Source of the DNA: Geminocystis sp. NIES-3708 | Lineage (GTDB): Bacteria > Cyanobacteriota > Cyanobacteriia > Cyanobacteriales > Cyanobacteriaceae | Assembly (NCBI RefSeq): GCF_001548095.1 | Contig: NZ_AP014815.1 | Location: forward strand, 372,001 to 436,000 | Reading direction: 5' to 3' | Length of the DNA stretch: 64,000 bases | Part shown: positions 51,918 to 58,004 of the stretch, piece after piece | Numbering within the stretch: the stretch's first letter is position 1 | Layout: each line of letters opens with the position of its first letter | Translations under genes and position numbers: made by a program | Notes under the pieces: model-generated | What the model was told of the DNA's origin: nothing | The model's input: only the letters and a program-made list of their open reading frames with translations | The model's database searches: none

Positions 51918-53060
51918 TTACTTAATTGCTAATTCTTGTAAAGCATTTTGGGCATGAAAACGAACTTGAGAATTCCCATTAGCTTCTATGGCTTTTAAAA
52001 TATCAATGGTAGTGGTGGCATTGAGTTGTTTGAAACTATAGCAAAGAGATTGTAAGATTTCTGGAGATTTTAACTTGAGGGAATTGCTATGATAAAAATC
52101 ACTCAAGATTGTCACTGCTTGATTTTGTAAATTCGATTTTGTTACTCTACCTAACACTGTAATGATTTCAAGAGTTATAGAGAAATTAGATATATAAATG
52201 TATTCTTTTAAACATTCTAAGCTTTGGGGTGTTGCTATCCATGATAATGTTCTCACAATCGTAACTTTTAAGGTTTCAGGAATCTGCTCATCCCGTAAAA
52301 CTTTATTTAAGGATTCTATGGTAAAAATATGATTACTGCGACTTAAAGAAATTGCTGTTTGTTGTGCAACAGATAAGTTAATGTCATATAGTAAAGGAAA
52401 CATTAATTTTACTATCTCTAGCTCTTCAGGTAACTTTAACTTTAATCCTAAACCGATAATGGCTTCTTTTCTAACGGATGAAGCATAATCTTGAAGGGCA
52501 TTTATCATCACTGATTTAATTTCAGGAGTGTCAAAATTTCTTAAAGTTGCGATCGCTATTGCTCGAATAGTGCTATCTTGATCATTAACTACCGATAATA
52601 AAGGCTTAACTATTTGTACACTTGGAATTTGGGCTAAAGCCTTCGTAGCTAAAAAACGATAAGAAGAATTTTCTAACAACTGGGATAAAAAAGCAACGGA
52701 TTGTTTCCCTTGACTAGCTAAAGTTTGAGAAGCTAACAGAAGTAAATCTTCCTCTTGAGTTGTGGTTAGTAACTCCGTAACAATCAAAATAATTTCAGGA
52801 TCTTTGATTTCATTAAGTATTTTTAAACTATACCATCGATGTTCAACATTGGCTTTTTCATCTAAAATTATTTCTTTTAAAGGTGCTATTACCTCTTTTC
52901 CATATCTTACCAATATTTTTGCGATCGCCCATTTTTCTTCAAAGTTGCCCAATTCTAAAACTTTTAGAGCCAATTCTAAAGAAATAGCATCAGGATCATC
53001 ATAGGAAATATTAGTTAAATTAAAAAGAATAGAACTTTGTGAAGGAACAACAGTAACCAT
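51918..53060 (-). CDS. HEAT-repeat protein
   Basis: The 380-residue protein is built of paired helices of HEAT/PBS-lyase type: EKWAIAKILVRYGKEVIAPL, STIRAIAIATLRNFDTPEI and SSVRKEAIIGLGLKLKLP are clear units, repeated about nine times. Such scaffolds bind other proteins; some cyanobacterial relatives are phycobilin lyases, but the lyase-specific text is not evident. The ATG at 53060 (MVTVVPSQSS) is preferred over an in-frame TTG at 53075. The gene lies 163 bases downstream of a 68-residue gene on the same strand. Confidence 0.82.
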   Translation of the reverse strand: MVTVVPSQSSILFNLTNISYDDPDAISLELALKVLELGNFEEKWAIAKILVRYGKEVIAPLKEIILDEKANVEHRWYSLKILNEIKDPEIILIVTELLTTTQEEDLLLLASQTLASQGKQSVAFLSQLLENSSYRFLATKALAQIPSVQIVKPLLSVVNDQDSTIRAIAIATLRNFDTPEIKSVMINALQDYASSVRKEAIIGLGLKLKLPEELEIVKLMFPLLYDINLSVAQQTAISLSRSNHIFTIESLNKVLRDEQIPETLKVTIVRTLSWIATPQSLECLKEYIYISNFSITLEIITVLGRVTKSNLQNQAVTILSDFYHSNSLKLKSPEILQSLCYSFKQLNATTTIDILKAIEANGNSQVRFHAQNALQELAIK

Positions 53061-53223
53061 TAGATAATAAATCAAACAAAAAAATAATATCTTCCTTAGA
53101 GTAATTGTTAATCTAACGGTATTTCGTAATTTTTATCACATATTTTCTATCTTCAGTGAGTTACCAACTAACTATTATGCACTTTTAGCATCGTATGAAT
53201 AAAATAATAGCCATATTTGACCA

Positions 53224-53430
53224 TTAACTAAGTTTTAAAGCATTAACAGGCACTTCATCCCAAGAAGCAACGATTTTAATAGTAACTTCCCAACCCTGTT
53301 GTTTTTGTTGAGGCGTTAATTTTTCTAGCCAATTGTCATGACAATCTTCTGCTGCCTTTTGATTAGTGGTGGCAATACAAGCCTGAATTATACCACAACC
53401 GTCTTTTTGTTCATTAACCCAAATAGTCAT
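53224..53430 (-). CDS. Small hypothetical protein
   Basis: The 68-residue acidic protein has Cys at about 12, 18 and 30 and a compact globular composition (TIWVNEQKDGCGIIQACIAT). It has no signal peptide or membrane segment. The family is unknown to me. It lies 137 bases downstream of the CHAT gene and upstream of the HEAT-repeat gene, all on the minus strand. Confidence 0.65.
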   Translation of the reverse strand: MTIWVNEQKDGCGIIQACIATTNQKAAEDCHDNWLEKLTPQQKQQGWEVTIKIVASWDEVPVNALKLS

Positions 53431-53567: not shown

Positions 53568-54956
53568 TCATTTTTCTTCTTTATCACCATAATAACAAAG
53601 AGGAGTTGTACCTCCGGGGCGACTATAAGCTGATTTATTTCCACATTCTCGACCTAGTGCATCAGTATCATAAGGACATTCACAACTATTTTTTAAAGAG
53701 TTACGAATAGGTTGTTTTGAGAAAGATTTTTTATATAGAGCGAATCCTGTTAATAAAAATACAGTAGTTAAAATAATGGCAACACTACTAAACAAAATTG
53801 TTTTTTGAGGAAAAAGAGATTTTAAAATGTTATTAAACGCAAAATTTGAACTATCAAAGTTCTTTTTGGTTAAATTTGACCAAAGAGGCGGATCAACAGC
53901 TAAATTTTGGCAAATAACAGGCAACCATGAAGATCCGGGTGCTTGTTCTTCAAGGTGATATAAGTCTTGTATTTTTGCTTTCCCGTCTTTAACAGCTTGA
54001 TATAATGTTTCTCCTCCAGAATAAGCTTGTAAGAAGTATTTTAAAAATTCTTGAGCTACTTCGTCAGGCACTGCTTCTCGCATAATAATGGTTTGTGGTA
54101 GCTGTAAATCTGCAAGGGTAAATCCTAACCCTAATCCATCACAGGAGTTAAAAATAGCTAATTCTAATCCGTTATGAATCGCTTTGGCAAGAGTGTTTTT
54201 TAATCTTTGAATATCAATAGTTTCATAGGGATTAATTTGCAATAAACCACATTGACTGTTATTCTTACTAACACTATGACCTGCAAAAAATAAAATTTGC
54301 CATGATTGCTCCCATAATGGAGTTAATTCTGTTAAATTCGGCTGATCTAAAAATACTACTTCTGCATTAGGTAAACTGTTTAATATACGTCTATCTCTTT
54401 CTATATCTATACCACGGCGATCACCTAAAATTGCCAAAATTCTTACCTTACGAGAATAATCTGTATTTTCCCCTCGATTAGGTTTTTGACAATTTGGTTT
54501 ACTCAGGGCAATTTCTGTTTGTGGATAACGATGCCACACTGCCCATAAATACCAAGGTAACTGCCATAAACGCACATCTGCCGTTTGAATAACAAAACGA
54601 ATTAAATCTTGTTGATTGAGATGAGGAAAAAGATCTAACAATAATGATTGTACTTGAGAATTTTCTAACCAATGATTAAGATCTATCTGCAAGGTATCAA
54701 TATATTCCTGACATTGACTGACGGCGACATTTGTTACTTGTGTTTCTGTTGCACCTAATCGCAAAGAAACTGATAAATTACGATAACTAGATTGCCAATT
54801 AGTATAACTTTTGTAGAGGTTTGGTGCAGGAGGTAATCTCCCCTCAGTTTCCACTAATAATTCTTTGGTGTCATCTTGGCTAAGGCGAATACTAACGGGA
54901 AAACCTGACTCAAAATTACCCTCTCCGATTTTGAAAATAATTAATTTCTTACCCAT
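53568..54956 (-). CDS. CHAT-domain (caspase-like) protein with membrane anchor and Cys-rich tail
   Basis: The 462-residue protein has a CHAT peptidase domain at about 170-345 with a His-Cys dyad: His227 in LFFAGHSVS and Cys272 in LAIFNSCDGLGL. Residues 1-165 form an N-terminal domain of unknown fold. A membrane helix lies at about 387-408. A 50-residue tail outside the membrane carries Cys425, Cys427, Cys438 and Cys454 with the motif CGNKSAYSRPGGTTPLCY, which I have seen in small bacterial secreted Cys-rich proteins. It lies 148 bases downstream of the DUF1822 gene and is the third gene of the sigma-like/DUF1822/CHAT set. Protease activity is predicted; the substrate is unknown. Confidence 0.86.
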   Translation of the reverse strand: MGKKLIIFKIGEGNFESGFPVSIRLSQDDTKELLVETEGRLPPAPNLYKSYTNWQSSYRNLSVSLRLGATETQVTNVAVSQCQEYIDTLQIDLNHWLENSQVQSLLLDLFPHLNQQDLIRFVIQTADVRLWQLPWYLWAVWHRYPQTEIALSKPNCQKPNRGENTDYSRKVRILAILGDRRGIDIERDRRILNSLPNAEVVFLDQPNLTELTPLWEQSWQILFFAGHSVSKNNSQCGLLQINPYETIDIQRLKNTLAKAIHNGLELAIFNSCDGLGLGFTLADLQLPQTIIMREAVPDEVAQEFLKYFLQAYSGGETLYQAVKDGKAKIQDLYHLEEQAPGSSWLPVICQNLAVDPPLWSNLTKKNFDSSNFAFNNILKSLFPQKTILFSSVAIILTTVFLLTGFALYKKSFSKQPIRNSLKNSCECPYDTDALGRECGNKSAYSRPGGTTPLCYYGDKEEK

Positions 54957-55104
54957 TACCTTTTTTTGACAATGTTATCCTATCATAACTTTATCAAAAA
55001 TTCTTTAATTAAGCTAATCAGCATCTCAGTTTATCGATTTATTTTTTACTAGCATTAAAAGATGAAAATTAAAGGGGTATTACTTATTACTTATTTTATT
55101 ATTT

Positions 55105-56508
55105 TTAAATGATAAATCCTTCACTTAATTGACTACTTCCACAACTAATTTGTATCCAAAAGTATTCTCCTTTTTTACCCCAAAATTTATACTGTAATAA
55201 GCGATCATCATTACGTGCTTCTAATTGTTTAAATATATAAGTATTTTCATCCATGATATTTACCTTTAAATTATGGGGTAAAGTATGAGAGTCATTAATA
55301 CCATAAAGACGAAAGAAGATACTATTTTCATTTTCTGACTTAGGTAATAAACCAATTACTAAAGCGAAGGAAAAACCTCCCACATCCACACCAAAATTGA
55401 GACGTTTACCACACCATAACCCAGCATTAGGATTATTGGGCTCTAAACGCCAGATGCCCTCCGCCGCATTCCAACGAGTATCATCGTCGTGAGATTTTGT
55501 CATGATATAATCAAGAGCTTGTATTGCTTGATGTTTATGAATACTATCAGGGGGCAAAACGCTTAATCGTTGGGCGGCAATTTTTAACTGTTGCTCGTCT
55601 TGAATTTGATAAATATATTGTAGATTAATTTCACCAGATCTCATCACAATGCCATTAGGAGGAAAAGAGGGAGAATCAGTTATTAAATCAAAATTATCAA
55701 CTAAATCTCGCAAATGTTGCCATCCCTGAGCGTAGGCTTCTTTAAAATTATGATTTAACCATGCACCTAAACTAATCGGTTGACATTGTTGATAGAGAAA
55801 TTGACGATAAATATCATCACTGAATATGGCAGCCCACTGGACAAAATTTAAACGAATACGTATTGTTAAACTATTAGTTTGATTTAATTGTAACAGTAAA
55901 TTACTTTTTTCTTGACTAGATAATATGGGTAAAGGTTCACACTTTGGTTGAGAAGAAAGAGCATATTTTTCAAATATAAATAATAAACTCAAATCTCTTT
56001 CTACGAAATATTCTGATAAACTATATTCAGCAAAATTATCATTATAACTAGCATATTTTTTAATTTTTTCATGACTAGAAAAACCCCAAAATCTTAGCCA
56101 ATTATTATCTAAATCAACATGAACTGGTAGAAAATAATCACCACAAAAACGAGGAATATCAACCCATTCTTGAGGAATATTAAATTCAGTTAAGTCTTGA
56201 CTTTCTTGAGGTAATAAAATTAAACGACTAGAATTATTATTAATCATAAAAGAAGTGCCATTAACAAATTCCCAAATACTTAATAAATTAAAGTGATCAA
56301 ACTCCCATTGAAAATTATTTATATTGGGATAAGTGATGTTTAACCATTGCAATAAACAGATAGAAGAAATAGCATTTAAAAGTCCTTGATATTGACTACC
56401 ATTAGGAGAACATTCTTTAGACATTGCCGTTGCTTTTGCTAAATCTTCAGGAGTAAATTTCAGCCATAAATGTTCGGAATGAAAAGCTGTAAATAAATCT
56501 AAAGACAT
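55105..56508 (-). CDS. DUF1822 family protein
   Basis: The 467-residue protein has the features of DUF1822: an N-terminal start LWLKFTPEDLAKATAMSKEC, a middle NWLRFWGFSSHEK... region and a C-terminal beta-rich domain with GVDVGGFSFALVIGLLPKSEN. DUF1822 proteins are cyanobacterial and have no known function. It begins 41 bases after the sigma-like gene's stop and precedes the CHAT gene. No membrane segment is seen. I recall that cyanobacterial genomes often place DUF1822 next to these two gene types, which supports a joint role. Confidence 0.8.
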   Translation of the reverse strand: MSLDLFTAFHSEHLWLKFTPEDLAKATAMSKECSPNGSQYQGLLNAISSICLLQWLNITYPNINNFQWEFDHFNLLSIWEFVNGTSFMINNNSSRLILLPQESQDLTEFNIPQEWVDIPRFCGDYFLPVHVDLDNNWLRFWGFSSHEKIKKYASYNDNFAEYSLSEYFVERDLSLLFIFEKYALSSQPKCEPLPILSSQEKSNLLLQLNQTNSLTIRIRLNFVQWAAIFSDDIYRQFLYQQCQPISLGAWLNHNFKEAYAQGWQHLRDLVDNFDLITDSPSFPPNGIVMRSGEINLQYIYQIQDEQQLKIAAQRLSVLPPDSIHKHQAIQALDYIMTKSHDDDTRWNAAEGIWRLEPNNPNAGLWCGKRLNFGVDVGGFSFALVIGLLPKSENENSIFFRLYGINDSHTLPHNLKVNIMDENTYIFKQLEARNDDRLLQYKFWGKKGEYFWIQISCGSSQLSEGFII

Positions 56509-56549
56509 AATATTAATATTGTTATTATTTACAAAATCATTGTTTAAAG

Positions 56550-58004
56550 TTAATTATTAATCAGAGAATAAACTGATTCATTAATCCATTCTTCGATTAA
56601 ATGGATAAAACAAACTTTAATATGTTTACTTTTAGGGAATACGAGTTTAAATTCTAACTCAATATTATTTTTAAAAATTATTGTGATTTTATGAAAAAAT
56701 GTTTCTTCAATTTCTTCATTCAAATTCCAATATTTTTGAATTAAATATTCTTTAATTTTATCTTTTTCCTCTGTACATAAAGATTGATATATAAAAAATA
56801 ATCTTTGCCAAAGAATTTGTTTACAATGTTCTTGTAACCAGGTATCTAAAGGAGTTTTTAATTCTCGAATTTTATCTTTAGTTAACTGTATTTTTTCATC
56901 TAATAATATTTCCTTAATTAGAGACTCAAGTAATATTGTTCTAATGGAAGTAATTGCACGAGTAACATGAAGTTGTGTCGTGACAAAATCAGAATAATTT
57001 ACAGACATAACTTCTGCTATTTCTGTTTGAGTTAGTTCTATTCCTTTCCACAGTTGAAATATAATTTTTTGAGGTAATTCAAGTTTAGAAAAAGCCTCAG
57101 TTAATATTTTATTAACTACATCATAATTTTTCTGATAATTTTTATCCTCATCATTAAAATTTGAGATAGTATCATCAGCTAAATTATCTAAATATTCTTC
57201 ATTACGAATAGTAAGAGGATTGCAATATTGACGAGCAAATTTAATACAAGTCAATAAAATATTTTCGCATTGTTGTGAATTTATAGGAGATAAAACACTA
57301 TTTTTTTTCTTTATTAGCAAATTATACTCATTACTAACTTGTATAAAATGAGATAAAGATGGGGATAATAACTTTTTATTTTTTCTTGTAAGAGGAGGCT
57401 TATAAATAAGATTAAAACATCCCCAAATTAATAAATATTGGTCTAAAATTTTCCCTGATAATCCTCCGATACTTTGTAAACATTTAGATTGGTGATTAGT
57501 TTTTAGTTGTTTTAATAATCCCCAATCAGATGCTCTTTCCCAGCCCATATATTGATAGGCTTGATCTATAAGCTGATATTCTATTTTATTTTTGGCATAA
57601 GTTTTTAATTTCGCCCCAAAATTTGTGTCATATTTAGACAGTAATTTAAGAGGGGAAGAAACTAATAAATTTGACCATTGAAAATAATCTTGCCAAGTAA
57701 ATAAATCCCAATAATTTTGTAGTCGTTGATAGACTTTTTCGGTAGCAAAAAAACAAGATTCTTGTAAATAAGCAATTAAATGTCTATGTTGAAGTGAGTC
57801 TTGATTTTGTCTTAACCACCGTAAAATTTCTTGGGCAACAATATCTTCTTCGGAGGAAATAATCTGTTGCCTTTGTAACAACCGAATATTTCTCTCTAAC
57901 TCTGGGTGTTTTTTCCAGTAGATAATCGAAGAAGAATCTTCTTCTTTCAAACATAGAAAGGAAGAAAACTGCGCCACAAGATTACTGCGTTTTTGCATTT
58001 TCAT
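56550..58004 (-). CDS. Sigma-70-like regulatory protein
   Basis: The 484-residue protein ends its central part with a sigma region-4-like helix-turn-helix (about 311-350: LPQKIIFQLWKGIELTQTEIAEVM, the underlined core being ELTQTEIAEVM). Region 2 is not clear: the N-terminal 200 residues are helical and Trp-rich, with LWGCFNLIY. The size is far larger than ordinary ECF sigma factors (about 200 residues), and extra domains precede and follow the HTH. It may be a divergent sigma factor or another RNA polymerase regulator. It is the first gene of the sigma-like/DUF1822/CHAT set. Confidence 0.72.
   Translation of the reverse strand: MKMQKRSNLVAQFSSFLCLKEEDSSSIIYWKKHPELERNIRLLQRQQIISSEEDIVAQEILRWLRQNQDSLQHRHLIAYLQESCFFATEKVYQRLQNYWDLFTWQDYFQWSNLLVSSPLKLLSKYDTNFGAKLKTYAKNKIEYQLIDQAYQYMGWERASDWGLLKQLKTNHQSKCLQSIGGLSGKILDQYLLIWGCFNLIYKPPLTRKNKKLLSPSLSHFIQVSNEYNLLIKKKNSVLSPINSQQCENILLTCIKFARQYCNPLTIRNEEYLDNLADDTISNFNDEDKNYQKNYDVVNKILTEAFSKLELPQKIIFQLWKGIELTQTEIAEVMSVNYSDFVTTQLHVTRAITSIRTILLESLIKEILLDEKIQLTKDKIRELKTPLDTWLQEHCKQILWQRLFFIYQSLCTEEKDKIKEYLIQKYWNLNEEIEETFFHKITIIFKNNIELEFKLVFPKSKHIKVCFIHLIEEWINESVYSLINN

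Follow-up and report, generated by a model that had tools for sequence, protein, structure and literature searches.

A divergent sigma factor gene, a DUF1822 gene and a CHAT protease gene in Geminocystis sp. NIES-3708: a possible protease-gated transcription switch

A 64,000-nucleotide stretch of the cyanobacterium Geminocystis sp. NIES-3708 (referred to here as the window; the host genome is 4.04 Mb) contains three adjacent genes coding for a sigma-like protein, a DUF1822 protein and a caspase-like CHAT protease. The closest described systems are built around EACC2-caspases, the subject of an eLife paper of 2021 whose first author is reportedly Kaur. The excerpts of that paper available to us (PMC8195603) describe neighbourhoods of an EACC2-caspase, an extracytoplasmic function (ECF) sigma factor and DUF1822, and suggest a route from protease to transcription; they propose activation as an autopeptidase and sensing by way of variable C-termini, call DUF1822 a tetratricopeptide repeat (TPR) protein, and leave the cut site unnamed. 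The window is a further member of these neighbourhoods. An earlier note on this DNA knew of no described function for the gene set, but both the neighbourhood and a general protease-and-sigma proposal are already present in these excerpts. By the same source, the shared features are the presence of the three families together and a constant N-terminal part followed by the caspase and a variable C-terminus, whereas the window differs in that its sigma protein is long (484 amino acids) rather than a short ECF factor, and in that its CHAT C-terminus is a short Cys-rich tail. Among the features of EACC2 systems, the window has the His-Cys caspase-like domain after a constant N-terminal part, the adjacent sigma and DUF1822 genes, and a C-terminus of the variable, often extracellular kind with a transmembrane helix.

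Regulated proteolysis of an anti-sigma factor is also the principle of DegS/RseA, and HetF is another caspase-like protein. The window set would resemble DegS/RseA in that a membrane protease sensing the envelope releases a sigma factor, but its protease is caspase-like and not of the PDZ-serine or intramembrane kind, and DUF1822 has no strong hydrophobic segment (its highest 19-residue mean hydropathy is 1.74, against 2.27 in CHAT). The available part of a review (PMC12288457) presents HetF-PatU3 of Anabaena as a cyanobacterial protease removing a negative regulator; the window CHAT protein has a weak match to the HetF model (E 5.6e-4), and we rejected HetF identity for it (NF045509, 18.3 bits against a cut-off of 1200).

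Proteolysis of the DegS/RseA type is also mentioned in the accessible portions of PMC10028731, which concern the type III-E CRISPR system of Csx29, Csx30 and CASP-sigma. The likeness of our locus to that system, which the earlier note had drawn, holds for the logic of a CHAT protease, a sigma inhibitor as its substrate and a sigma factor, but not for the chains themselves: neither profiles nor the best 50 of 663 Foldseek matches showed Csx29 or Csx30 among solved structures, which is weak evidence; whether the structures include those chains was not checked. The CHAT profile matched no solved chain at all, a comparison with little power. No CRISPR parts such as Cas7-11/gRAMP were found among the nine window open reading frames (ORFs) scanned, comprising the three genes and six neighbours; the genome was not searched for them. 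We also rejected identity with the type III-E sigma factor (NF041236, cut-off 100 bits), for which the window protein is not listed at E≤1. Below its cut-off, this model is matched elsewhere in the window genome, at two places, and in 7 of 14 control genomes, and 10 of 31 relatives of the window sigma protein match it at E≤0.01 (best 4.7e-8), weakly and among many other sigma models.

We propose, with a confidence somewhat short of even, that the gene set works as a protease-gated transcription switch for stress, in which the sigma factor is held back by DUF1822 until CHAT cleaves the latter after Arg290 (R290). The sigma-like protein would act as an alternative sigma factor, and DUF1822, encoded right behind its gene, would bind and restrain it. 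CHAT would sense a signal through a periplasmic Cys-rich tail and a single transmembrane helix, its cytoplasmic caspase-like domain would then cut the DUF1822 linker after Arg290, and the cut would separate the N-terminal two thirds of DUF1822 from the rest, freeing the sigma factor. The binding of DUF1822 to the sigma factor, the inhibition, the membrane topology, the cleavage and the signal are steps that we infer. New beyond what is in print are the tight linkage of sigma and DUF1822 genes, the tracking of DUF1822 and CHAT copy numbers, the co-occurrence of sigma and CHAT genes that are not linked, and a conserved Arg/Lys in the DUF1822 linker.

The three genes and their products

All three genes lie on the minus strand, at 56550-58004 (sigma-like, 484 amino acids), 55105-56508 (DUF1822, 467 amino acids) and 53568-54956 (CHAT, 462 amino acids), with intergenic gaps of 41 and 148 bases, exactly as had been described from the sequence at the outset.

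Taken alone, the sigma-like protein has no Pfam match at E≤1, and its NCBIfam matches (FliA/WhiG, 5.6e-7; sigma70-ECF, 3.5e-5) are weak and all under the curated cut-offs. The family gives a clearer signal, since 27 of the 31 members of the window-type sigma family match sigma70-ECF at E≤0.01 (alignment A1, the best-scoring 31 of 50 sigma matches, with the window copy standing for locus L124). Alignment A5 (67 sequences, namely that of the window and 66 of the 80) gives a profile that in region 4 matches the sigma factor of 1l0o (E 3.4e-9), SigF of 8jzt (1.2e-6) and FliA of 9wsf (4.4e-6), and in region 2 matches 8b3z (1.6e-4); SigF, FliA and RpoS align more weakly in this second region. Transferred by eye to the window protein, the region 2-like segment, with D-x-F-Q and TYA, covers approximately residues 92-156 (57537..57731, minus strand), and the region 4-like helix-turn-helix approximately residues 300-360 (56925..57107, minus strand). 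The predicted structure (mean pLDDT 87.4, pTM 0.51) has sigma factors for all of its top 11 PDB matches (sigma-S, sigma-B and primary sigma), with a modest best E of 0.014 at probability 0.97 and template modelling (TM) scores of 0.14-0.16 of the whole query. Sigma-70 regions 2 and 4 are thus detectable, weakly for the window protein and more clearly for its family; sigma features are present, which answers the objection that the first protein might lack those for RNA polymerase binding. We read the 484-residue protein as a divergent member of the sigma-70 family, extended at both termini, which would bind core RNA polymerase and direct the start of transcription.

These same data can be read otherwise. 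The divergent sequence without a Pfam match, the low whole-chain TM-scores and the terminal additions would also suit a derived DNA- or RNA-polymerase-binding adaptor that is not an active sigma factor, with the conserved DUF1822 arginine being structural or a docking site. We think this quite improbable, given that regions 2 and 4 both score in profile searches and that the arginine belongs to the internal stretch of the DUF1822 model with the lowest confidence. Among the best 80 of 287 relatives, the closest one with a name is Geminocystis sp. GBBB08, with 71% identity in the sigma protein.

The full-length DUF1822 protein, the predicted partner or inhibitor of the sigma factor, matches PF08852 (E 2.4e-66). 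Its model (pLDDT 89.1, pTM 0.81) has a mixed N-terminal part followed by a helical part, a linker at residues 278-291, more helices and a beta-rich C-terminus; the C-terminal domain (residues 364-466; 55111..55419, minus strand) is delimited by the model secondary structure and has weak structural matches, many of them immunoglobulin (Ig)-like or fibronectin type III (FN3)-like by title. The 663 Foldseek matches of the model are all weak, not one reaching E≤0.001, and the titles are from the best 50 of them. Against solved structures the DUF1822 profile matched only chains of the major histocompatibility complex (MHC) at E 0.45 or worse, which we take as chance. The printed description as a TPR protein was not confirmed for the window member, for which neither profile nor Foldseek search found a solved relative. 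An Okeania genome carries, behind its sigma gene (L208:7594-10389), a 931-residue protein that joins a DUF1822 N-terminal part to a part that by eye resembles a dynamin-type GTPase.

The CHAT protein matches PF12770 (E 6.1e-11) and was aligned with its relatives in A3 and A7 (60 and 55, respectively, of 72 CHAT-like ORFs). The His-Cys dyad noticed earlier is indeed intact, with catalytic His227 (54276..54278, minus strand) and Cys272 (54141..54143, minus strand) each conserved in 54 of 55 aligned proteins. The acidic Asp298, which is Asp in 51 of 55, could be a residue of the substrate pocket. Approximately residues 1-135 (54552..54956, minus strand) form an N-terminal part conserved across the 55 proteins that stands in place of the EACC2 domain; its position fits, and no EACC2 model turned up in Pfam, NCBIfam or PADLOC against which to match it. 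A transmembrane helix is predicted at residues 387-405 (53742..53798, minus strand; mean hydropathy 2.27 over 19 residues), followed by the Cys-rich tail (53571..53717, minus strand). Two relatives have small proteins of approximately 100 residues that share 58-59% identity with the tail and by eye open with a signal-peptide-like segment; the tail is therefore probably periplasmic. These homologues (L273:2506-2802 and L274:2408-2716) are stand-alone, secreted-looking proteins with the Cys-rich domain of the tail. The window genome has a second CHAT protein of the family (L284:4687-7173, contig C1, at about 1.28 Mb) with a macro domain.

Linkage and co-occurrence of the three families

Gene order was examined in two sets of loci. 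The first consists of 80 named loci, the best-ranking of 287 confirmed relatives to which a single peptide pattern led via the sigma protein. DUF1822 follows the sigma gene in 74 of these 80, and three of the six misses are at a contig end. The second set comprises the best 100 DUF1822 loci by E-value, which favours strong members and includes the window's own stretch (L124). On the same strand nearby, 20 of these have both a window-type sigma gene and a CHAT gene, 29 the sigma gene only, 44 CHAT only and seven neither, whereas the window's HEAT-repeat gene (51918-53075), searched likewise as a control, was found once. The three-gene arrangement is far above chance, and the concern that the three families might rarely occur together elsewhere is not borne out.

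In 38 of the 51 loci without a window-type sigma gene, a same-strand ORF of 190-380 residues precedes DUF1822 (alignment A2, 38 of 48 upstream ORFs, those of 190-380 residues being kept). Sigma70-ECF is matched by 17 of the 38, and a profile of all 38 matches ECF SigE (E 0.0022). Profile comparison of the long (A1) and short (A2) sigma types aligned 30 region 2 columns (Probab 0.80, E 0.07) and does not establish a common origin. Behind CHAT, 22 of the 30 ORFs scanned are DUF928 (alignment A4, 30 of 41 downstream ORFs found, 11 having been dropped by eye); little conserved sequence was found upstream of CHAT orthologues.

Within the window's own family, the CHAT orthologue (64-85% identical) adjoins sigma-DUF1822 only in the window genome and one other (G009), and in eight further genomes it is on a different contig or more than 0.6 Mb away. 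The two nonetheless occur together: across 15 genomes of the family, sigma and CHAT orthologues (called at ≥42% and ≥64% identity, respectively) are both present in ten and both lacking in five (Fisher 3.3e-4, uncorrected for relatedness). Two of the five negatives are incomplete genomes (G005, only 67% complete, and G014, only 63%) in which more distant homologues occur (44% for CHAT, 26% for sigma).

A broader set of 60 genomes gives a similar picture for DUF1822, which is found in 52 of them. Presence of DUF1822 and CHAT agrees in 55 (both in 48, neither in seven), with DUF1822 only in four and a weak CHAT only in one, and their copy numbers are correlated with a rho of 0.85; allowing for genome size lowers it to 0.78, and taking a single genome from each family (n=33) leaves it at 0.85. 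The one-genome-per-family check is the only control for relatedness behind our p-values and correlations. The association of sigma with CHAT is weaker (both 28, sigma only two, CHAT only 21, neither nine; p 0.02), a pattern that replacement of the long sigma type by short ones would produce.

Several of these observations weigh against a switch that joins all three proteins. In just 18 of the 80 named loci does a CHAT gene begin 6.5 kb or less from where the sigma gene starts, and CHAT is nearby in 20 of the 49 loci with a window-type sigma in the 100-locus set. One genome that is 99% complete (G026) keeps sigma and DUF1822, the latter with its arginine, and has no CHAT match; two others (G036 and G056) have DUF1822 and no CHAT match. 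In another genome (G010, contig C28, L154), one of the ten of the window's family with both orthologues, the window-type sigma gene contains one stop and the DUF1822 gene two, while the CHAT orthologue is open. From the 74 and 18 of 80 loci, sigma-DUF1822 is a tight pair and CHAT a looser member. The gene order that the earlier note asked about is conserved, and the linkage is strict for sigma-DUF1822 but not for CHAT, whose gene in the window's family mostly lies in another part of the genome.

Such a distribution also suits a self-contained sigma/partner pair with a signal of its own; CHAT would then signal independently and be a neighbour at times, as both belong to envelope stress regulation. 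The occurrence of the pair with no CHAT gene nearby in 56 of 80 and 29 of 49 loci speaks for this explanation, as does the genome with the pair and no CHAT match, but the copy-number correlation of DUF1822 with CHAT and the joint presence or absence of unlinked sigma and CHAT orthologues argue against it, and we consider it improbable.

A candidate cut site in the DUF1822 linker

The linker at residues 278-291 (55636..55677, minus strand) is the sole internal low-confidence stretch of the DUF1822 model (pLDDT <50), and it contains a conserved arginine, Arg290 (codon 55639-55641), which makes R290/S291 the candidate cut. In alignment A6 (the window plus 61 of 71 DUF1822 sequences, mostly of the 390-residue class) this column holds Arg or Lys in all 62 sequences, and Ser or Gly comes next in 51 of them. 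Of eight positions with Arg/Lys above 90%, R290 has the least conserved surroundings (mean top frequency 0.35 against 0.40-0.63, ungapped), with a small margin to the next least conserved, position 368. An unguided motif search that did not use this column, over 78 linkers (161 sequences thinned to below 50% identity), returned L-A-F-[AS]-F-R-[SGN], with Arg/Lys at the place of the Arg in 54 of 78 and a mean score of 10.66 against 6.74-7.05 in 20 shuffles with equal restarts. About half of A6 has instead G-A-R (at the two places before the Arg, Gly in 35 and Ala in 30 of 62), and the core common to both classes of linker is an Arg and a small residue. Metacaspases, orthocaspases and separase prefer Arg or Lys at P1.

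The flexible loop of the sigma protein was examined for a conserved basic residue, and none was found (at most 9 of 67); a conserved cut site in that loop was therefore rejected. Of the two proteins, DUF1822 is on alignment grounds the better supported substrate candidate, by virtue of its linker arginine, in keeping with the earlier suggestion that it might be the target. No DUF1822 cut site is described in the available text of the open-access PMC8195603 or PMC9679502, the two papers in the open literature searched that name DUF1822; by their listings, related searches brought up no further paper on the gene set, subscription papers being outside the scope. By the portions of PMC10028731 at hand, the candidate cut after Arg would set the window apart from the type III-E system.

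Other results count against cleavage at this arginine. In a 100-row alignment (99 loci plus the window, with short DUF1822 proteins added) the R290 column has Arg/Lys in 82 of 100, and of the other 18 rows 12 have by eye a neighbouring G-A-R-like site and six displaced or doubtful ones only. The matrix of the F-R form scores at least 7 in only 21 of 62 A6 members (34%, with a null of 21%), so that the two linker classes share little beyond the Arg and a small residue, and the motif search placed the window's own site elsewhere, missing R290. Since the linkers are related, shuffles will lose to them whatever the cause of the conservation. The Arg is equally common where no CHAT gene is near, and could thus be a structural or docking motif. 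Finally, one CHAT relative (L063) is without the catalytic pair: this 1752-residue CHAT-like protein behind sigma-DUF1822 (L063:7565-12820) has both catalytic positions replaced in the alignment (by Arg and Pro) and is possibly an inactive version.

The DUF1822 motif matrix also scores slightly above null on CHAT itself (at least 7 in 33 of 55 against 44%; mean best score 7.84 against 6.88), a point for a conflict or cell-death system as in print, in which an EACC2-caspase cleaves itself on sensing an invader and sigma and DUF1822 form a separate transcriptional arm, DUF1822 not being a substrate. The autopeptidase activation and the sensing by variable C-termini that the excerpts of PMC8195603 propose would fit as well, and the C-termini are variable here (CHASE2 in 30 of 55 aligned relatives, Peripla_BP_6 in eight, nSTAND1 in seven, WD40 in three, and others, with the macro domain in the second CHAT protein of the window genome). 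However, the 12 best CHAT motif scores are at scattered positions, for which we rejected the motif as a self-cleavage site, the conserved linker Arg is in DUF1822, and no PADLOC model matches the sigma, DUF1822 or CHAT protein at E≤1. We regard a conflict system of this kind as unlikely, if still a serious contender.

Neighbouring genes and wider meaning

Downstream of the CHAT gene is a 68-residue ORF (53224..53430, minus strand) with no Pfam match. Relatives with 69% identity adjoin the relocated CHAT orthologue in two (L277 and L278) of the ten related CHAT loci examined, and the ORF may be a fourth part of the gene set. The HEAT-repeat gene farther downstream (minus strand) resembles the phycobilin lyase subunit CpcF and NblB, below cut-offs, and is outside the conserved set; the upstream neighbour of the set is a polyprenyl synthase.

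Extending the proposed switch beyond the window, the DUF1822 family, widespread in cyanobacteria, may consist of cytoplasmic anti-sigma factors, each switched off at a conserved linker site (R290/S291 here) by a caspase-like protease of the membrane with specificity for Arg. This would be a CRISPR-free counterpart of Csx29-Csx30-sigma, coupling transcription to signals from outside the cytoplasm. This generalization is tentative, and we hold it with some doubt, but the candidate cut site at R290 makes the reading of DUF1822 as a substrate directly testable. If it is true, cyanobacteria would free sigma factors from their inhibitors by means of caspase-like proteases, the large uncharacterised DUF1822 family would be explained, the CHASE2-containing and other CHAT proteins would gain a substrate, and the protease switch of type III-E CRISPR systems would gain a CRISPR-independent parallel.

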